Source of the DNA: a virus
Length of the DNA stretch: 54,868 bases
Strand: one strand, 5' to 3'
IMG/VR virus record: IMGVR_UViG_3300003324_000142
Span: 1 to 54,868 of that record
The position numbers were made by a program, and so were the translations under genes. Shown here one piece after another: positions 3,105 through 16,518 of this stretch; the stretch's first letter is position 1; each line of letters begins with the position of its first letter. The notes beneath the pieces are model-generated. The model searched no databases and had not been told where the DNA came from. It saw only the letters and a list, made by a program, of their open reading frames with translations.

Positions 3105-3545
3105 GTGCAAATCCACGTCTGGTACGGCGTGGCGCTTGCGGCCATCACCTTTGTCTCTTGGAGGCTTGGTGGTGGCCGTTTCGCATGGGGCAAATTATTC
3201 TGTCACGATCCCGCAGACGACCGCATCTATCTGTGCCTGATCCTATGGTACAATTGGCTTTGCACCAACGCAGCCGCACTGACCCAAGCGTCCTATTACC
3301 CGTTCCTGACGATGTTCGTGATCGACGGCGCGACATGGGGTCTCATCGTCGGCACACTGCAAAGCGACCGCGCGCGGATCGTGGGATACACCAGTCTTGC
3401 GGTGCTGACATACGACATAACGCTCGCAGCCGGCGTGTCGTCGCTCGGGGTGAGCCCTGCGCTTGATTGGCTCCGTATGTTCGGCTACTTCCAGATGCTG
3501 CTCATCCTGCTCCCGGAGAAGCGAGTATGCCCAATCCGGCTCTAG
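3105..3545 (+). CDS. Integral membrane protein, unknown
   Basis: 146 aa from a GTG at 3105, three bases after the previous stop. Several hydrophobic stretches are visible: near the N-terminus (VALAAITFVSWRL), around residues 40-60 (IYLCLILWYNWLCTNAAAL), 65-85, 90-110, and a C-terminal one (MFGYFQMLLILL). This suggests four or five membrane spans. It overlaps the next gene by 19 bases. The family is unknown; it forms a trio with the next two membrane proteins. A holin role cannot be excluded, but the endolysin is far away at 25.2 kb. Confidence 0.65.
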   Translation: MQIHVWYGVALAAITFVSWRLGGGRFAWGKLFCHDPADDRIYLCLILWYNWLCTNAAALTQASYYPFLTMFVIDGATWGLIVGTLQSDRARIVGYTSLAVLTYDITLAAGVSSLGVSPALDWLRMFGYFQMLLILLPEKRVCPIRL

Positions 3546-4039
3546 TAGTCCCTGCGGTCAGCACTTTCCCGCTGTCATTCGACGGCAACCCGTGGACCTT
3601 CGGGAGCGCTTTGTTCGCCCTGACCGTCGTGTCGTCGGTATCGCTCGCAACGATGGGCCAATTGTGGGCCGAAGCGCGCGTATTCGGCTATCGGTTCAAT
3701 GCTCCGCATGGTGCCGCACGGACGATTCTGTTCCTGCTGATGCTGTCGTTTTTCATGCGGTCCGCTCCGGACGTGCTTTTCCTGCTGCTATGGGGCGGCG
3801 TCGGACCGCATACCATCGCCATTGTGCTGATCACGAAACGGTGGTTCGACGCGATCAGCGTGATCCCCTTTCTCGGCTCGGCACTCATTCTCATCCGAGC
3901 CCGACCGCCCATCGTGTTCCAATTGACCCGACAACCGCTTCCGGTTGACCTGTGGCCCACATGGCTTATGGTGCGGAAGAACGTGGGGATTATCGGCTTG
4001 GCAATGCTGATAGCAACGGGGGTTACACTTGCGCGATGA
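3527..4039 (+). CDS. Integral membrane protein, unknown
   Basis: 170 aa; ATG 3527 follows a GGAG seven bases upstream (GGAGAAGCGAGT). Hydrophobic runs appear around residues 25-45, 67-95 (TILFLLMLSFFMRS, then VLFLLLWGGV), 95-120 and at the C-terminus (VGIIGLAMLIATGVTLA), so four or more spans are likely. The stop overlaps the next start (ATGA). I do not recognise the family. The trio of membrane proteins ends the leftmost + strand operon. Confidence 0.65.
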   Translation: MPNPALVVPAVSTFPLSFDGNPWTFGSALFALTVVSSVSLATMGQLWAEARVFGYRFNAPHGAARTILFLLMLSFFMRSAPDVLFLLLWGGVGPHTIAIVLITKRWFDAISVIPFLGSALILIRARPPIVFQLTRQPLPVDLWPTWLMVRKNVGIIGLAMLIATGVTLAR

Positions 4040-4380: not shown

Positions 4381-6705
4381 TCAGGTGCTATACCCCTGCG
4401 CCGCCGCATACCCAGAGACATCGCCCCGCTCGCCCCAATGGTACAGGGTGGCGCGTGCGTTGGGCTCGTCGGGGTTCTCCGCGAAATAGCCTTGGAGCGC
4501 TCGCCCGCTGTCCACGTAGCCCATCGATTCGAGGATGCCGGCGATGATGTGCGGGCTGACCTGACCGCGCGTGACGGACTGTTTCTTGAGCCGCTGCATC
4601 ACAGCGACGCTGCTGATCCATCCGCCGACGAAGCCAGGCAATTGCTGCTCGACCGCTTCGCTGATGGCACGCTCGATCGGGCTGCGTGAGAGGTTGACAG
4701 CTTCCGCGGTGCTGGTCGTCTCGGGTGCGCGCATCGGGATCGCGCCGCGCTCGATCGGATAGCTGAGCAACCAGTCGGCGACGATCGCCTTGCCGTCGCC
4801 GCGCATCCATTCGAACAACGGCTTGAAATACTCGTCGTTCATACCGCGTTCGATCAGGTCGGATGCGGTTTGGATTGGGCTGTAGAATATGGCGTAGCGA
4901 CGACCGTTCTTCTTCGCCGGGATCGCGTCTTTATAATTTGTGAAGAATCCCCAACACGCAGGGTTGTCCTCCATGTCCTGATCGTGACCTTTGCCCTGTA
5001 TCTCGATCGTTTCGCGGGTCAAAAGCGGCTTCAATACCTCGACCAGATGCAGGCGTTCGTCGACCTTGATTTCGTCGGCCAGAATGAACACCTTGTTGCG
5101 CATCCACGCGTTGAATTTGCCGCCGCCGTCCGCCAGTTCCTGTGCGTTGGGGAAATGGACGTAAGGGGCGCCGACAGCGTGCGTCATGGCGATTTCGATC
5201 ATCGTCTTGCCGGCACCTTCGGCCGACTGGATCACCGGCGCCCATGGTATCTTGTAGCCCGGATACTGGACGATGTGCGCCATCCATTGATGCAGAATGC
5301 GCTGGTCGTTGGTGTCCGGGATCAGCCGCGCCAGGTGGTTCAGGAACGGGCTCGCGTCGCCTTCGATCCGCTGGACCTGTGGTGGCGCGTACATGTTGAC
5401 CCCGGACCGACCAAGCGCGTCCTTCACTATCGCCCCTTGGGGCTGCTGCGGCAGGAAACGGATGTGGTCGACCTTGGGGATGGTCCACAGCGTCGAGCGG
5501 AGCGCCGCCTTCCAGGCTTCGTCGGTTTTCTTGCCGTCGCTGGTGATGATGAACTGCTTGCCACCATAGGCACCGTTGAACGTCGTCGCGTTGTGGAACC
5601 GCCCGTCCGGTGCGAGAATTTTACCCATTTTCACGATGAAGGCACACCCGGCGAAATACTGCTCGCATTCCAAATGCGTCAGATATTCACCGCTGCAATC
5701 GAGCGGCGGCGGTGATGCCACGGACGGCATGGGCGGCACGGTGTCACCCTGCGCCGCCGCGGGCGCTGGCACCTGTTGCCCGCCGAACGACAGCGCCGCT
5801 TGGAGCGCAGGTACCTTGCGGGTCAGATAAGACCAGCCGACCTCTGTGTCGCGCAGCGAATGCCACTGCTTGTGATTCTCACCCCGGTCGTTGGCGTCGT
5901 AACGCTCGCACCATTTGGACCACATGGCGAACAGCGATTCGCAGTCCGTCAGCGACCATCCGGCTTGCTTGACGCCGCTGGTGACGGCGATCCATTCGCC
6001 GCGGTCCAGATCGTTCGGGTCGATCAGGTCAAGCGCCCGCTGGACCCATTCGATCGATGGCGCGGCCATGTCGGGCGTGCCGAGCGGATGCCGGGTGCCG
6101 TTGCCGCCGTCGATTACGTTGACGTGTGCGAGTGCTGTTTCGAGCGCTTCGACGGTGTAGGGCTGACCGAATGCGCCGAGCGCATGGCATGTCACCAGAT
6201 ACGGTTCGCCCTTGCGGTGATAGAAGCCGGGGCATCGCATCACGCGCGTTGCGTCGATGATGTTGTCCGCGTCGTACAACTGGCGCAATTTGCGCTGGAT
6301 CAGGGTGAACCGATCGTTGCCGGTGTAGGGTTGCGTCACCCAATAGACATGATATTTGCCGGGGCTCGACTGGACGGCGAACGACGGGACGGGTTGTAAT
6401 GCTGCGGCCCGCTCGTAATTCTGCTGCGCTGACACGTTGTCCAGATCGGCGTAATTGGCGCGCAGTGCAGACACGTTATCCAGCTTGCGGCCCGCACCGT
6501 CCATCATCGCCGGGGTGACGAAGATGCCGTAGCCGCGTTCATTCATCGCGGTCAGCCATTGCCACAGGTTCGGCAGGGTGCCGCGCTGCGGATGGCCGGG
6601 GTCGCTCTTGTCCGTGTCGTGGAGCGCGCGCCAGTCCATCACCGCTGTATTCGGGTCGCCGGCAATCGCTGAGACGTAGGCCCATGCGTAATCGTAGGGG
6701 GTCAT
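4381..6705 (-). CDS. Primase-helicase (PrimPol / RepB-like primase fused to helicase domain)
   Basis: 774 aa. The start at 6705 overlaps the stop of the upstream HTH gene (ATGA); a longer frame from 6726 is possible but lacks this junction. The N-terminal 170 residues match a PrimPol-type primase: NYADLDNV gives the D87xD89 metal pair, PGKYHVYW holds the conserved His near 119, and DATRVMRCPGFYH follows. Residues 230-290 look like a PriCT-2 domain (ESLFAMWSKWCERYDA). The C-terminal half holds a helicase-type ATPase with Walker A EGAGKT near 496-501 and Walker B FILADE near 540-545. It probably makes primers and unwinds DNA for the phage family B polymerase. It is convergent with the + strand membrane genes. 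Confidence 0.85.
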   Translation of the reverse strand: MTPYDYAWAYVSAIAGDPNTAVMDWRALHDTDKSDPGHPQRGTLPNLWQWLTAMNERGYGIFVTPAMMDGAGRKLDNVSALRANYADLDNVSAQQNYERAAALQPVPSFAVQSSPGKYHVYWVTQPYTGNDRFTLIQRKLRQLYDADNIIDATRVMRCPGFYHRKGEPYLVTCHALGAFGQPYTVEALETALAHVNVIDGGNGTRHPLGTPDMAAPSIEWVQRALDLIDPNDLDRGEWIAVTSGVKQAGWSLTDCESLFAMWSKWCERYDANDRGENHKQWHSLRDTEVGWSYLTRKVPALQAALSFGGQQVPAPAAAQGDTVPPMPSVASPPPLDCSGEYLTHLECEQYFAGCAFIVKMGKILAPDGRFHNATTFNGAYGGKQFIITSDGKKTDEAWKAALRSTLWTIPKVDHIRFLPQQPQGAIVKDALGRSGVNMYAPPQVQRIEGDASPFLNHLARLIPDTNDQRILHQWMAHIVQYPGYKIPWAPVIQSAEGAGKTMIEIAMTHAVGAPYVHFPNAQELADGGGKFNAWMRNKVFILADEIKVDERLHLVEVLKPLLTRETIEIQGKGHDQDMEDNPACWGFFTNYKDAIPAKKNGRRYAIFYSPIQTASDLIERGMNDEYFKPLFEWMRGDGKAIVADWLLSYPIERGAIPMRAPETTSTAEAVNLSRSPIERAISEAVEQQLPGFVGGWISSVAVMQRLKKQSVTRGQVSPHIIAGILESMGYVDSGRALQGYFAENPDEPNARATLYHWGERGDVSGYAAAQGYST

Positions 6706-12004: not shown

Positions 12005-12402
12005 GGTAATAACTCGTCAGGCACATTGAAAAATCCCTGGCCGCCTCTGAACGGTATAGGTTCAATTGCTTCGATATTCCCAAGCAGCCAACCATAACGA
12101 CCGTGATCGTACACGCCGTAGCGACGTTCTGTTTCTGTGACCAAGAAACTGAGAATTTCTGTCGGCTGAACGTCTATCAATTCACATCTTGCAATAACTG
12201 CACCAAACGGCAACGCTTGACCGATTTGCGGATCATATTGAAGGCAATCGGTGGTGAATCGCTTCTGATCTGTTGCCCAACGCTTAGCCGCATGGATCAA
12301 CAACGGTCCGCGATATTTCGTCGACCAACCCCGCGTTTCGATTTTTTTCAGACCTAATGGGATCGCCGATGCCCACGGCTGCCACAGCGACACCGCTCTC
12401 AT
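12001..12402 (-). CDS. ASCH domain protein
   Basis: 133 aa; the start at 12402 overlaps the helicase stop (ATGA). It has the ASC-1 homology pattern: SLWQPWASAIPLGLKKIETR, then YRGPLLIHAAKRW, the W-Q-P and I-H-A-A-K signature of phage ASCH proteins, and GVYDHGRYGWLLGNI near the C-terminus. ASCH domains have a PUA-like beta barrel thought to bind RNA or modified nucleosides; some relatives hydrolyse N4-acetylcytidine. The specific role here is unknown. Confidence 0.8.
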   Translation of the reverse strand: MRAVSLWQPWASAIPLGLKKIETRGWSTKYRGPLLIHAAKRWATDQKRFTTDCLQYDPQIGQALPFGAVIARCELIDVQPTEILSFLVTETERRYGVYDHGRYGWLLGNIEAIEPIPFRGGQGFFNVPDELLP

Positions 12403-14966
12403 CCGAACCACCCCCGCACCTGCGCATCCAGCGCTTCCATATCACCGCGGGGCAGTGCCAACGCCTGCTGCGTCGTCATGCCGGTGGTGAGGAAGAAGCG
12501 CTTATGCACGCTGCGCTCACTGTCGCCGCCGTGCATACGAATGCCTGCCCACTGATCGATCGTGTCGCGCAACCGAGCCTGCATCTGAATACGCTCCATC
12601 TGGCGATTGGCGGCACCACGGCCCGCAATCTCGCCAGCGGCCCGCGCGACCCGCTCGGCCACGTCGCCAGGCGCTTCAAGCTGCATCGCCGCGCGCATTT
12701 GAGCAGCAACCTCACGATCGAGCAAGATCAGATCACCGTCCACCTGCTGCAACGTCCGCGCGCCACCCTGCGGCACAGGCGGTTCGGCGCCGCAATAGGG
12801 GCAAGCGGTCAATACGCGCTCATAGGGACGGCCGCACTCGCGGCACGCCGTCAGCGGTATCTCATCGGGGTCGGGTGCGGCCTTGGCTTTCTTGTCGCGC
12901 CGGTCGAGCGTCCAGTTGTGCGGCTTGTCCGGGAAGCCGTGGCGTTTCCAGTTCGACACCAGATCGATGATCGTGCCGTGCGTCTTGCCGGCCAACACCC
13001 GGAGCGCGCGGCCGAACATTTGCAGGTATTTGTTGAGCGATGCGGTCGGGCGGGCCATGATGACGACCTCGCACGCCGGCACGTCGAATCCTTCGTCGAA
13101 CAGATCGACGTTGACCAGCACCCGCAGCCGTCCATCACGGAACCTGCGGATCATCTCGCGTCGAACGCCGCTATCGGTCTTGGCGCTCACCGACGCGGCC
13201 GGAACACCTGCTTCATTGAACCGGTTGGCGATGTCGTTCGCTGTCTCGACATCGGTAGCGAAACAGATTGCCCGTTTGCCGTGGACCCATTTGAGATATT
13301 CGGTCACGGCGTCGCTGACGATGTGGCTACGCTTGGACGCCTCGCGCATCTTGTTCGGGCTGTAGTCGCCCTTCGCCGTGATCGCATCGTCGTCGATCGC
13401 GAAATCGTTCTGCGGAATGATGATGTCGTAATCGGACAGTGCATTCAGGTTGATCAATTCGCGCATCGTCGGACCGATGCACATCGCATCGAACACACCA
13501 TCCGCGTGGCGCCCAAGCCCCTTGCCGTCCGCACGGAACGGACAGGCGGTCACGCCGAGCCCTGCGGCGTTGGTGAACAGCCGGATTGCTTTACCCCATA
13601 TGTTGGGTTCAGGTTGATCTATGACATGGTGACAGTTGTGAACTACTATTCCGTTGGCGATATAGGTGTGATATTCATCGACTTCAAAATTGTAAACAAA
13701 ACTTCGTCGGTCTGTTCCAAAATCTGTCGGTTTGTAAATCTCAATACAGTCCACCCGTTGCATCGCAAAAAGGTGTCCTTTTTCGTATCCTGTATCTGAC
13801 GCACGCGCGCGCCGTGCGAAGCACCATCCGCTTCCACAGCTATTTTCAACAAGGGATGAGCCATATCCGGCTTGTAAGAACGGGGATAACCGGTATCCCT
13901 CGTCATTTTCGTCTTGATGACATGTTGATGTACAAACCCGATCGGTTCCAACAGCAGAATCAACATTTTTTCTGCTTTTGGTGGTTCCTTTCCGTTGCCA
14001 CCCTGCCGTATAGGTTTGTGATTTTGAGATAATAAAGTGTTCCGCATCTTTATTCGTGAAGCGTCTGATTTCATCGGATTGTTTCGCTTCATTCGATCCG
14101 ACGCATATTTGTGATTGGTTTTTGACATAGTTTCCGATGAAATTCTCCTGCGGTATGTATTTGAGCAGGACGTGCTGCAATACGCCCGACCGGTTTCTCG
14201 ATAGAGTCTCACTCGCCCGTAATACGGAAATGTCGCAGGAGAACCGCATACGATACACGTTGCTTCGATCGACATATAAACAGTCCTCTGGTTTCAAATC
14301 CCCCGCCGAAACCCACCCTCGGGCGGTCCAAAACGGATGGTTCGGTGTGCATACCACATGGTGCGTTCCAACAGCAATACGCACCATGTGTTTCGGCGAT
14401 GGGTTCTTATAAAGACGACCGACGCTGCCGATAACAAACCGATTCTCTTTTTCGTCCCAAGCAGTTACCTCGTCCCCCGTATTCATGGTTTCAATCGGGC
14501 GTAATCCGGTCGGTGTGGAAATCATTGTGCCGGCGGGAAAACATTCATCCTGCGTCCATCGATCGACCTGTGCGGCCCATTGCTTCAATTCGGCCGCTCG
14601 GGACACGATGGTCTGCACCGAACCAACGCTGCATCGCGCATCGGGATTGACGAACGATTTGCCGCCAAATTCAGCCCGGTGTTCCTGGACGATGCCGGCG
14701 ATGGTGGACTTGCTGCCGATGATGCGATGCTTGATCCCGCGACGCGCGACGTGCAACGACATCTGGCCGACCAACTCATTGCGATGGGCCATCACGACCT
14801 CATTGAGCCCGTTCTGATGCCCGTCGAGAATAATGTCGGTGGTGATGATCGACTTGCCGCCACCGGTCGGCAGCACGCCAAGCACATTGCTGTGCCCCGC
14901 GGACCATTCGGCGTAGATGTCCTGTTTGAGCGTAGCCTGGTCGGGTCGCAGGATGATGGGGGTCAT
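12399..14966 (-). CDS. SF2 (DEAD/DEAH-type) helicase containing an intein
   Basis: 855 aa precursor; the start overlaps the methyltransferase stop (ATGA). The N-extein has Walker A (LPTGGGKS, about 32-39) and the first half of motif II, DE at 140-141. The frame then carries a 303-residue intein (142-444) and resumes at C445-HH, restoring motif II as DECHH. The C-extein has a RecA-like second domain ending in QMFGRALR (motif VI) and a zinc ribbon (CRECGRPYERVLTACPYCG). The spliced protein would be about 552 residues, a usual size for phage DNA repair or replication helicases of the RecQ/Rad25-like SF2 group. Because the intein interrupts the catalytic DExH box, the helicase should be inactive until splicing. 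Confidence 0.9.
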   Translation of the reverse strand: MTPIILRPDQATLKQDIYAEWSAGHSNVLGVLPTGGGKSIITTDIILDGHQNGLNEVVMAHRNELVGQMSLHVARRGIKHRIIGSKSTIAGIVQEHRAEFGGKSFVNPDARCSVGSVQTIVSRAAELKQWAAQVDRWTQDECFPAGTMISTPTGLRPIETMNTGDEVTAWDEKENRFVIGSVGRLYKNPSPKHMVRIAVGTHHVVCTPNHPFWTARGWVSAGDLKPEDCLYVDRSNVYRMRFSCDISVLRASETLSRNRSGVLQHVLLKYIPQENFIGNYVKNQSQICVGSNEAKQSDEIRRFTNKDAEHFIISKSQTYTAGWQRKGTTKSRKNVDSAVGTDRVCTSTCHQDENDEGYRLSPFLQAGYGSSLVENSCGSGWCFARRARASDTGYEKGHLFAMQRVDCIEIYKPTDFGTDRRSFVYNFEVDEYHTYIANGIVVHNCHHVIDQPEPNIWGKAIRLFTNAAGLGVTACPFRADGKGLGRHADGVFDAMCIGPTMRELINLNALSDYDIIIPQNDFAIDDDAITAKGDYSPNKMREASKRSHIVSDAVTEYLKWVHGKRAICFATDVETANDIANRFNEAGVPAASVSAKTDSGVRREMIRRFRDGRLRVLVNVDLFDEGFDVPACEVVIMARPTASLNKYLQMFGRALRVLAGKTHGTIIDLVSNWKRHGFPDKPHNWTLDRRDKKAKAAPDPDEIPLTACRECGRPYERVLTACPYCGAEPPVPQGGARTLQQVDGDLILLDREVAAQMRAAMQLEAPGDVAERVARAAGEIAGRGAANRQMERIQMQARLRDTIDQWAGIRMHGGDSERSVHKRFFLTTGMTTQQALALPRGDMEALDAQVRGWFG
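13635..14543 (-). other. Intein (Hint domain) within the helicase motif II
   Basis: The in-frame insert runs from C142 to N444. Block A is CFPAGTMISTPTGLRPI with nucleophile Cys 1. Block B is THHVVCTPNHPFW with the T-x-x-H type residues. Block F is VYNFEVDEYHTYIANG, and block G is VVHN followed by Cys +1. All residues needed for protein splicing are present. The middle of the intein, roughly 240-400, has no LAGLIDADG endonuclease in this frame; instead the same DNA encodes a Vsr-like endonuclease in another frame (13646-14275). The region is more AT-rich than the extein, as expected for an acquired element. Confidence 0.9.
13646..14275 (-). CDS. Vsr-like (EDxHD) homing endonuclease overprinted on the intein
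   Basis: 209 aa, same strand as the helicase but in a different frame and wholly inside the intein DNA. ATG 14275 has GAGGAC with a 7-base spacer upstream, a good internal ribosome site. The N-terminus has a zinc-finger-like CIVCG (7-10) and YCSTSC (32-37). Next comes KYASDRMKRNNPM, typical of these phage enzymes, and then a Vsr/DUF559-like catalytic core: E102, KPDM (D137), VEADGASH (E148, D150, H154) and GWTVLRFTN. This family includes free-standing endonucleases reported next to split inteins. It would cut intein-less helicase alleles and so mobilise the intein. It overlaps splicing blocks F and G in the other frame. Confidence 0.85.
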   Translation of the reverse strand: MSIEATCIVCGSPATFPYYGRVRLYRETGRAYCSTSCSNTYRRRISSETMSKTNHKYASDRMKRNNPMKSDASRIKMRNTLLSQNHKPIRQGGNGKEPPKAEKMLILLLEPIGFVHQHVIKTKMTRDTGYPRSYKPDMAHPLLKIAVEADGASHGARVRQIQDTKKDTFLRCNGWTVLRFTNRQILEQTDEVLFTILKSMNITPISPTE

Positions 14967-16111
14967 TTGCCCATCACCGCTTCCACGAATCCCGTTGCCG
15001 TTTCAGCGTCGAGGCCGTTTCCGTAGGCGCGCAGTCGTCCCACTCGGGCGGGAGCCGCATCAGCCAACGGGAATGTGCCGGGTTCAACCGGCCGCCACCT
15101 TGGCCCGTCTGGATCGTTGCATAGCACCCATTCGCATCGATTCGTGCTGGCCCTGTCGGCCACACCTGCCGACCGAGCAAGCCGTTGATCGGCACATTCG
15201 GGCAAGCTGGGCCATCCTTGTGATCGCGGGTGGTCGGAGTCGACCACCCGCTCAACATCGCCGCTCCCGGCAACCGATCCGTTCCCTGCGATGGCCCACC
15301 CTTCGGGCCGTCCTGCTGGCATGGCGTGGGCCAACCCGCCAATTGGGCCACCATCGCAATATCCGTGAGCGACACGCCCATCGATTGCGCGCCCCGAGCC
15401 ATGCTCTCCCGCTTGCGCTCCAAAAACCACTCCGGTGTTCCGCTCGCCGGCTGTGCCACCGGCGTCGGCCAACCGCTCACCGACGAAATAGAGCCGTTGC
15501 CGGATATGGTCGCCGTCATGGTCGCCAAGCGATGCGCCAGCCCATGTGGCAAAATCACGTAATTCTTCGGTGAGAGCGGGATCGGGACTGCATAGAATGG
15601 CCCGCTGTAACCACTCGTCTGCTTGCGATCCTTGCCAGGTACGCGCCACTGAGACGCCCGCAGCGCACAGATCGACCGCCCCGAAGGCGTAACCCTCTGC
15701 TTCCATGTCCAGCGATACAAGATCGAGCCAACCGAGGCCGTCCTTGCTCGCAACCTGCTCTCCAAGGACTGCTGTAGGGCGGCACTCGCGGATGAGATGG
15801 TGCCAGTGCGGCCATAGGTGCCGCTCATCAGACACCCCAGCGCCTCGACCTGCCGCGCTGAAAGGTTGGCACGGGCAACTCCCAGTCCATACGGGTCTGT
15901 CGTCGGACCAACCGGCGCGTCTGAGTGCATGGGACCAAATTCCTATACCTGCGAAGAAATGACACTGCGTGAATCCACGCAAATCGGCGGGTCGAACGTC
16001 ACGGATGTCGCGTTGATCGACGATACCGGGTGCAATGTGACCCGCACCGATCAGATTGATCAACCAACGCGCGGCATACGGATCGCACTCATTGTAGTAG
16101 GCAAGGTTCAC
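14963..16111 (-). CDS. C5-cytosine DNA methyltransferase
   Basis: 382 aa from GTG 16111, which overlaps the preceding stop (GTGA); an ATG at 16138 is an alternative. Motif I is HFFAGIGIWSHAL (SAM binding). Motif IV is GSCPCQPFSAAG with the catalytic Cys. Motif VI is GEQVAS, with EQV in place of the usual ENV, and motif VIII is RQRLYFVG. The C-terminal motifs IX/X are RVGRLRAYGNGLDAETA. Between VIII and X the target-recognition region is Gly/Ala/Asp/Arg-rich and low in complexity (LADAGGTAGERN...), a common look in phage enzymes of this type. It probably protects phage DNA from host restriction. Much of this gene is also open in another frame. Confidence 0.85.
   Translation of the reverse strand: MNLAYYNECDPYAARWLINLIGAGHIAPGIVDQRDIRDVRPADLRGFTQCHFFAGIGIWSHALRRAGWSDDRPVWTGSCPCQPFSAAGRGAGVSDERHLWPHWHHLIRECRPTAVLGEQVASKDGLGWLDLVSLDMEAEGYAFGAVDLCAAGVSVARTWQGSQADEWLQRAILCSPDPALTEELRDFATWAGASLGDHDGDHIRQRLYFVGERLADAGGTAGERNTGVVFGAQAGEHGSGRAIDGRVAHGYCDGGPIGGLAHAMPAGRPEGWAIAGNGSVAGSGDVERVVDSDHPRSQGWPSLPECADQRLARSAGVADRASTNRCEWVLCNDPDGPRWRPVEPGTFPLADAAPARVGRLRAYGNGLDAETATGFVEAVMGK
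14974..15930 (-). CDS. Overprinted ORF inside the methyltransferase gene
   Basis: 318 codons on the same strand as the methyltransferase but in another frame, from ATG 15930 (AGGAA 10-14 bases upstream) to 14974. It is not random-looking: repeated W-P/S-T-P units (GWPTPVAQPASGTPEWF, GWSTPTTRDHKDG) lead to NGLLGRQVW and a C-terminal LNPAHSRWLMRLPPEWDDCA, which I recognise as a recurring motif of proteins annotated beside phage cytosine methyltransferases. That recollection is not backed by a search. It may be a real second product; alternatively the motif may belong to a database artefact created by the same overlap in relatives. Confidence 0.5.
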   Translation of the reverse strand: MHSDAPVGPTTDPYGLGVARANLSARQVEALGCLMSGTYGRTGTISSASAALQQSLESRLRARTASVGSILYRWTWKQRVTPSGRSICALRASQWRVPGKDRKQTSGYSGPFYAVPIPLSPKNYVILPHGLAHRLATMTATISGNGSISSVSGWPTPVAQPASGTPEWFLERKRESMARGAQSMGVSLTDIAMVAQLAGWPTPCQQDGPKGGPSQGTDRLPGAAMLSGWSTPTTRDHKDGPACPNVPINGLLGRQVWPTGPARIDANGCYATIQTGQGGGRLNPAHSRWLMRLPPEWDDCAPTETASTLKRQRDSWKR

Positions 16112-16518
16112 AGCCGCACCATCACCACGATCTGCCACACACCCTCAGCAGCCGGTCCGACCAGATCGGCACCCGGCGACGGATTGTGAACCACGGCGCC
16201 ACCACGGCACACCACGACATGATTGACCCCGCCCGCCGTCGAACCGAACAGCAGATACGGCACGGTCGGGTTCATCTGGCGCATGTGGTCCAACACAGCC
16301 GACAGCGCCTCGGAACCGTCGAGCGCGCTGATATATGGCACGAGCCCGTCCCGTTCGGACCACTCGCGCAACCGGCTCACCGCGACCTCTGGTGTCGGGT
16401 TGTCCTTGTTGAAATGCGGCACGTCGTCGCGGTCGAGCAACGTCGCGACACAGGCACGCAGGCAATCGCCGTAGCTGTACGGCGGATTGTGCGGGACGGT
16501 GCAGTAGTGAGGGGTCAT
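16108..16518 (-). CDS. Putative papain/C39-like cysteine peptidase-fold protein
   Basis: 136 aa; it starts in an ATGA overlap. The sequence has the order expected of a C39/papain-like fold: Cys in YSYGDCLRACVATLLDRD near residue 19, a central helix, His in GGVNHVVVCRGG, and Asn/Asp in AVVHNPSPGAD. Related small phage proteins exist, but the substrate is unknown. It may be a peptidase, a deamidase or an inactive fold. It lies directly before the methyltransferase in the operon. Confidence 0.65.
   Translation of the reverse strand: MTPHYCTVPHNPPYSYGDCLRACVATLLDRDDVPHFNKDNPTPEVAVSRLREWSERDGLVPYISALDGSEALSAVLDHMRQMNPTVPYLLFGSTAGGVNHVVVCRGGAVVHNPSPGADLVGPAAEGVWQIVVMVRL

Follow-up and report, generated by a model that had tools for sequence, protein, structure and literature searches.

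Fractured genes, in which a split intein carries a Vsr-like endonuclease gene (HEG) between its halves, were reportedly described by Dassa et al. in 2009 (NAR 37:2560), and EDxHD homing endonucleases, I-Bth0305I (PDB 3r3p) among them, by Taylor et al. in 2011. Intein endonucleases are described in a general review as in-frame fusions (PMC3943268), and the intein types listed elsewhere are split, full-length and mini only (PMC9403480). The nearest published case to an intein HEG overprinted in another frame is a phage DNA methylase whose ShiLan domain hides an HNH endonuclease out of frame; this domain is neither an intein nor an intron, and its nuclease lies outside any intein (Arsenault, Gosselin and Gogarten 2025, PMC11855218). 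For overlapping frames that paper refers to Gorbalenya 1998 and to a preprint about actinobacteriophage inteins of non-canonical architecture (Gosselin et al., bioRxiv 2025.01.02.630785). The preprint may describe similar cases, its title limiting the scope to actinobacteriophages, and priority may lie with Gosselin et al., Dassa 2009 or Gorbalenya 1998.

Here we analyse a 54,868-base virus record (the window, meaning this whole stretch of DNA), which belongs to a tailed phage as judged from its portal, major head protein, terminase, tape measure and primase genes. The part compared, positions 1-25000, is without a close relative. Its helicase gene contains an insertion that resembles the ShiLan domain in being read through without stops in a phage gene, in holding an unannotated homing-type nuclease in another frame and in its patchy occurrence (PMC11855218). 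The ShiLan domain has no splicing motifs, no detectable ribosome-binding site, an HNH nuclease and a GTG start (PMC11855218). In contrast, a predicted splicing Hint domain is present here and shares part of its codons with a nuclease of the EDxHD/DUF559 type.

The likeness to fractured genes of the Dassa type lies in the Vsr-like nuclease and in an intein at conserved sites of DNA-metabolism genes, and seven fractured loci that we recovered have just this arrangement. However, the intein is unsplit in the window and in 135 other loci, where the HEG lies across it in another frame and the intein frame is uninterrupted. As in canonical full-length inteins such as PI-SceI, the Hint domain is interrupted between blocks B and F and the element appears mobile, but the canonical endonuclease lies in frame and is excised with the intein, whereas here it would be a separate product from another frame. 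We interpret the locus as a mobile intein with a homing endonuclease encoded over it in the +1 frame instead of being fused in frame, and from the sequences we give this reading a probability of about 0.88. It would constitute a fourth intein architecture beside the split, the mini and the full-length form with an in-frame endonuclease, one in which a single DNA segment encodes two proteins, each doing a different job for one selfish element. As a long same-strand gene overlap in prokaryotic viruses it would also be very well replicated. Live homing endonucleases might then lie concealed in what annotation treats as 'mini-inteins with a long disordered insert', and the arrangement provides a route to split inteins that can be tested.

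Architecture of the intein and the overlapping endonuclease gene

The features of the locus, all on the minus strand, are as follows.

12399..14966 (-): SF2 (DExH) helicase ORF, the intein host (ResIII E 4e-9, Helicase_C E 1.5e-17)
14966-14544 and 13634-12402 (-): N-extein and C-extein, parts of the helicase ORF
13635..14543 (-): intein, 303 aa, C1...H302 N303 followed by Cys+1 (C1/TxxH/HN in 56 relatives; empty alleles in Vibrio phages)
14259..14543 (-): predicted Hint splicing domain, N-terminal part, residues 1-95 (AF2 pLDDT about 93-97; Foldseek to inteins)
13770..14246 (-): intein-frame linker, residues 100-258 (predicted disordered, AF2 pLDDT about 42-56; HEG wobble z about 0)
13635..13769 (-): predicted Hint C-terminal part including blocks F and G, residues 259-303 (AF2 pLDDT about 94-96; NCBIfam intein_Cterm)
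13646..14275 (-): HEG, 209 aa, +1 frame relative to the intein, ATG start, TAG stop (DUF559 E 4.4e-12; AF2 pLDDT 92; 136 loci)
14283..14288 (-): Shine-Dalgarno-like GAGGAC, 7 nt before the HEG ATG (sequence; Shine-Dalgarno enrichment in the family)
14165..14257 (-): zinc-finger-like segment of the HEG, C7/C10/C33/C37 (C33 invariant, the others at least 90% in 56 relatives)
13676..13879 (-): DUF559/Vsr-like nuclease domain of the HEG (D137, E148, D150, H154 and D163 conserved)

The helicase ORF (14966-12399) matches the DNA helicase family PHROG_16 (E 1.5e-81) and is interrupted at DE/CHH (the slash marks the junction), in the Walker B/DExH box. The intein matches Pfam PT-HINT (E 4e-12), Intein_splicing (E 1.4e-10) and NCBIfam intein_Nterm and intein_Cterm, and has the class 1 splicing residues C1, T66-H69 of block B and H302-N303/C. 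C1, TxxH and HN are invariant or near-invariant across 56 intein relatives, and Intein_splicing is matched by every member of the 56-row intein alignment. Judged by these motifs, 13635-14543 is a complete class-1-type intein. It forms one continuous frame in the window, where the gene is not split into two intein halves. Domain profiles found no endonuclease in the intein frame; disorder is predicted there instead. The AF2 model computed from the 56-row alignment has both ends at pLDDT >93 and the middle at about 48, and in the C-terminal part confidence is lower only at a loop near residues 271-280. Its nearest structures in Foldseek are inteins (2lwy, TM(target) 0.87), consistent with a predicted Hint fold.

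DUF559 is matched by 56/56 members of the HEG alignment. A sequence profile matched PDB entries 3hrl (E 2.7e-10) and 3r3p (E 0.053), and the relevant Foldseek matches of the AF2 model (56-row alignment) are NGO0050 (3hrl), the homing endonuclease I-Bth0305I (3r3p, rank 3) and Vsr (1vsr). These structural matches are weak (E about 0.004-0.17) and mostly confined to the nuclease domain, and the sequence profile backs them. By its conserved residues the 209-aa protein has an EDxHD (Vsr-like) catalytic domain. It shares the nuclease fold of I-Bth0305I and the EDxHD homing endonucleases, although I-Bth0305I is intron-encoded and the present HEG is encoded across intein codons.

A sequence-only reading of the window had already placed an intein and a 209-aa ORF here, and its coordinates and motifs proved exact. 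Its full set of splicing motifs around a middle without an endonuclease agrees with the profile matches. The Vsr-like enzyme that it saw in the other frame of the same strand is borne out by DUF559, 3hrl and the conserved acidic and His residues, as is its zinc finger by the conserved cysteines, and GAGGAC is indeed present seven bases before the ATG (14288-14283). It had also noted an overlap with splicing blocks F and G; the HEG stops 11 nt short of the intein end, so the overlap takes in F and part of G. Antisense to the helicase lies a 480-codon open frame (12357-13799, plus strand).

Distribution and probable mobility of the dual-coded intein

A tblastn search of annotated phages with the 209-aa protein returned 41 records, including Pseudomonas MR14, many Vibrio phages (CP-T1 among them), Corynebacterium phi673 and one Tunturiibacter phage. 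Among the 40 records listed, the HEG match always falls within a single annotated gene (helicase, P-loop hydrolase, hypothetical or coil-containing protein), and the whole intein-bearing helicase aligns over 97-99% in MR14, 1.088.O, K391, CP-T1 and 104E43.1. In the seven annotated phage records that were inspected, the HEG is offset by +1, stops number 14-24 in the third frame and the HEG is nowhere annotated as a separate gene.

Loci were gathered by alignment-led scans of viral and bacterial contigs, together with profiles for the HEG and both intein ends; when the single HEG protein served as query, viral contigs gave no matches, and an alignment query was needed. A continuous intein frame with the HEG at +1 was found at 136 loci on phage and bacterial contigs (122 clusters at 70% identity), and no locus in the contig scans had it at +2. 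The sequence-only reading could have failed had only one frame been conserved in relatives, or had stops broken the 209-aa frame. Both frames are conserved, and the core of the HEG frame is free of stops in 136/136 loci, a count to be read with the preference of HEG-led searches for intact HEGs in mind; the third frame carries 2-28 stops in the loci for which it was counted. The scans also returned 7 fractured, 6 in-frame and 6 full-length free-standing forms, plus a set of short DUF559 matches on bacterial contigs in which no intein was found (L099-L124), which we left out. The arrangement is spread patchily over Pseudomonas, Vibrio and Corynebacterium phages and over MAG contigs of many phyla.

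Searching with the N-terminal part of the intein alone yielded 70 different inteins, with a bias to close kin because its query alignment came from dual-coded loci and the best 80 were kept. A +1 HEG was present in 66, with one more cut by the contig end; the rest were two mini-inteins of 130-138 aa and one truncated intein. In these sequences the +1 overprinted HEG is the normal state of the intein family and not a rare intermediate.

The dual-coded inteins occupy Walker B motifs, mostly DE/CHH of SF2 helicases. At five loci (L050, L058, L065, L094, L098) such an intein lies in a non-helicase P-loop protein with DnaX-like or terminase-like flanks, the terminase-like genes being assigned by eye from those flanks, and again at Walker B. 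A further group of inteins (L068, L070-L081), at an HPNC/..HN/CRC site in host genes of head-morphogenesis type by reading of the flanks, has an in-frame DUF559-type endonuclease that is kin of the overprinted one.

Intein-less alleles, a comparison that the sequence-only reading had proposed, exist in the related Vibrio phages 141E35-1 and PS17B.1, where DECHH is uninterrupted. At the same site, Vibrio phages 268E42.1, K459 and PS65A.1 have a 150-aa mini-intein without a HEG, and Vibrio phage 1.088.O has a 356-aa dual-coded intein. Joined together, the exteins of 1.088.O measure 1635 nt, exactly the length of the empty gene, which indicates precise in-frame insertion in these relatives. In several pairs the intein DNA is far more similar than the flanking exteins. 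Between 1.088.O and K391 (L002/L003) the intein differs by 5.6% and the exteins by 22%; the singly coded N-terminal part of the intein also differs by only 6%. Such low divergence is as expected for recent transfer, with constraint accounting for part of it. The excess similarity is not seen in the bacterial contig pair L087/L088. As read from the sequences, the empty alleles, the 150-aa mini-inteins, the excess intein similarity and the enrichment of Shine-Dalgarno (SD) sequences described below fit an active mobile element. The helicase of Vibrio phage PS65A.1 (L283) has, besides its Walker B mini-intein, a second, canonical-looking intein at Walker A (GGGK/CH..HN/TVV) with LAGLIDADG-like motifs in frame.

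Constraint on the two frames

When HEG codons were reshuffled synonymously, the intein frame stayed open in <1% of trials in nearly every lineage, and in the window in 0/4000 or 0.0005, by the codon usage chosen. The reverse shuffle, with intein codons replaced by synonyms, gave a median of 1.1%. Summed, the forward shuffles reach log10 P -224 over 68 lineages and the reverse -244 over 122, figures that are indicative only, since the lineages are related and not independent. The shuffles in both directions rule out a chance overlap of the two frames.

Two features mark the part of the overlap where both products are constrained.

13649..13798 (-): doubly constrained stretch, HEG residues 160-209 and intein C-terminal part (wobble z 8.6, 8.4, 28.2)
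13730..13756 (-): register-locked motif, HEG GWTVLRFTN = intein RVDCIEI(Y) (common to the large majority of 126 lineages)

The stretch was delimited by a wobble test on HEG third bases, which are intein first bases, in 67 lineages, with a null of codon usage plus avoidance of intein stops. HEG profile columns 16-180 show neutral wobble (z -0.8 to 1.4); conservation sets in over columns 181-230, where the three z values listed above were obtained. Intein third bases, which are HEG second bases, give z 45-58 in the shared C-terminal part. The motif has the consensus GW[TK]VLRF[ST]N in a nuclease strand and R[VL][DE]S[VI]E[VI] in the Hint domain, and keeps one register in most of the 126 lineages, fractured ones included.

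Differences between 1.088.O and K391 follow the same pattern. Upstream of the HEG, 14 of 17 fall on the intein third base; in the HEG middle, 34 of 39 fall on the HEG third base, and codons of this close pair there count 5 changed and 32 silent for the HEG against 32 changed and 5 silent for the intein. The doubly coded last 45 codons contain two differences in 135 nt. Because of the wobble tests and these close-pair differences, we take the intein middle to be only an open passage and the end to be truly doubly coded. On this comparative evidence, double amino-acid constraint is limited to the C-terminal ~50 HEG codons, and over the first ~75% of the HEG the intein frame is an unconstrained linker, merely kept free of stops. 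The overlap thus holds an internal control, one part being constrained in a single frame and the other in both. Purifying selection, which the sequence-only reading had suggested testing in each frame, is found in the HEG frame and, within the last ~50 codons, in both; the intein middle is neutral.

A functional domain in the middle of the intein frame is unnecessary, as the wobble sites there are neutral under a null that includes stop avoidance. An RNA intron was also rejected: the host frame is both open and conserved, and a search of 13300-14900 gave nothing in Rfam at E up to 1.

Proposed expression, competing explanations and related forms

An SD sequence of at least 5 nt, located 4-12 nt before the HEG ATG, occurs in 47/115 lineages (41%) compared with a background of 7.5% at out-of-frame ATGs in exteins (P 3e-23); by the same rule about 59% of HEG starts are without one. 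At many helicase loci the SD (GAGGT) falls within the intein codons for DEVL. Because of this enrichment, translation of the HEG by internal initiation is likely.

In the mechanism that we infer, ribosomes would translate the helicase mRNA straight through the intein, whose residues 1-95 and 259-303 would form a Hint domain folding around the disordered linker. This domain would splice itself out and so restore the helicase DExH box. An internal start on the same mRNA, at the SD/ATG just past splicing block B, would yield a separate zinc-finger/DUF559 nuclease of 190-260 aa. The nuclease would cut helicase genes that have no intein, at their Walker B codons, and the whole element would be inserted when the break is repaired from a copy that has one. 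Along most of the HEG the intein frame would serve as an open passage; the register would be locked by the final ~50 HEG codons, which are constrained in both frames.

The HEG might instead lack a start of its own and be made by programmed ribosomal frameshifting, as a product joining the helicase N-terminus, the intein N-terminal part and the HEG. Its invariable +1 frame is compatible with this, as is the fact that in some loci the frame is open for tens of codons before the first good ATG. The SD-ATG enrichment at the HEG start nevertheless makes frameshifting very unlikely, as do the TGA that closes the window's HEG frame 18 nt upstream of the ATG and the free-standing and fractured relatives, which begin on their own codon; no conserved slippery site was noticed on casual inspection. 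It is extremely unlikely that the intein has ceased to splice and persists as an unspliced insert in which a HEG is hidden, the state suggested for the ShiLan domain, whose open host frame and out-of-frame HNH gene set a precedent (PMC11855218). Unlike ShiLan, 56/56 relatives match Intein_splicing. The residues C1, TxxH and HN are conserved, structure prediction gives a high-confidence Hint fold, and the C-terminal part is constrained in the intein frame. Moreover, retention of the insert would break the helicase DExH box.

The nuclease domain is common to DUF559 proteins of bacterial chromosomes and plasmids, which could point to a resident, non-homing nuclease of restriction or repair type. 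We see only a slim chance of this, given that the relatives sit within an intein or adjoin an intein-less helicase, that the intein DNA is far closer than the flanking exteins in several pairs and that empty alleles exist. A search for membership of a defence system gave no PADLOC match. A mobile intein with an overprinted, internally initiated homing endonuclease remains our preferred reading.

The fractured split-intein loci (L052, L127, L129-L133; n = 7) form one clade (SH-aLRT 100) within a group that contains overlapped ones (94) in a maximum-likelihood tree, built quickly from 138 rows, in which free-standing HEGs are scattered (five changes) inside the overlapped clade. Many branches of this tree are weak. 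Outside the nuclease domain the in-frame outgroup is poorly aligned, which leaves the root and thereby the direction of change uncertain. In fractured loci the HEG overlaps both halves; in L052 the N-half ends at 3355, the HEG spans 3252-4013 and the C-half starts at 3893. The doubly coded motif is present in 4/5 fractured lineages, the search having picked another GF site in L132. Five of the six free-standing HEGs lie directly upstream of an intein-less helicase and overlap its start, and the sixth (L193) lies upstream of other replication genes. At locus L037, the helicase lying downstream of a free-standing HEG has no intein but has a frameshift (4406-4443) at the DE/xHH site of the would-be insertion, which may be a repair scar or a sequencing error.

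The sequence-only reading had suggested that an unsplit intein with an out-of-frame enzyme could be an intermediate or alternative form. The fractured clade, nested among overlapped loci and sharing their doubly coded motif, lends this some support, but a rare intermediate does not agree with a +1 HEG in 67/70 inteins. Tentatively, and at slightly less than even odds, HEG overprinting arose once on the intein, was locked by the doubly coded C-terminal segment, was kept through >120 lineages and gave rise to the fractured split inteins and to the free-standing endonucleases next to helicase genes. If the overprinted form is the source, natural split inteins would have a concrete origin.

The upstream neighbour gene in the window, a C5-cytosine methyltransferase (14963-16138, minus strand), also has two same-strand ORFs, one of 391 aa (PHROG_363, E 2e-61) and one of 318 aa at 15930-14974 (PHROG_1008, E 2e-22; phrog_31772, E 6e-23). 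Long phage matches (at least 80% cover) number 111 records for the 391-aa frame and 71 for the 318-aa frame, and Erythrobacter phage ZS04 has the ORF pair at the same +1 offset. By these matches, the methyltransferase ORFs are possibly a second conserved dual-coded pair.
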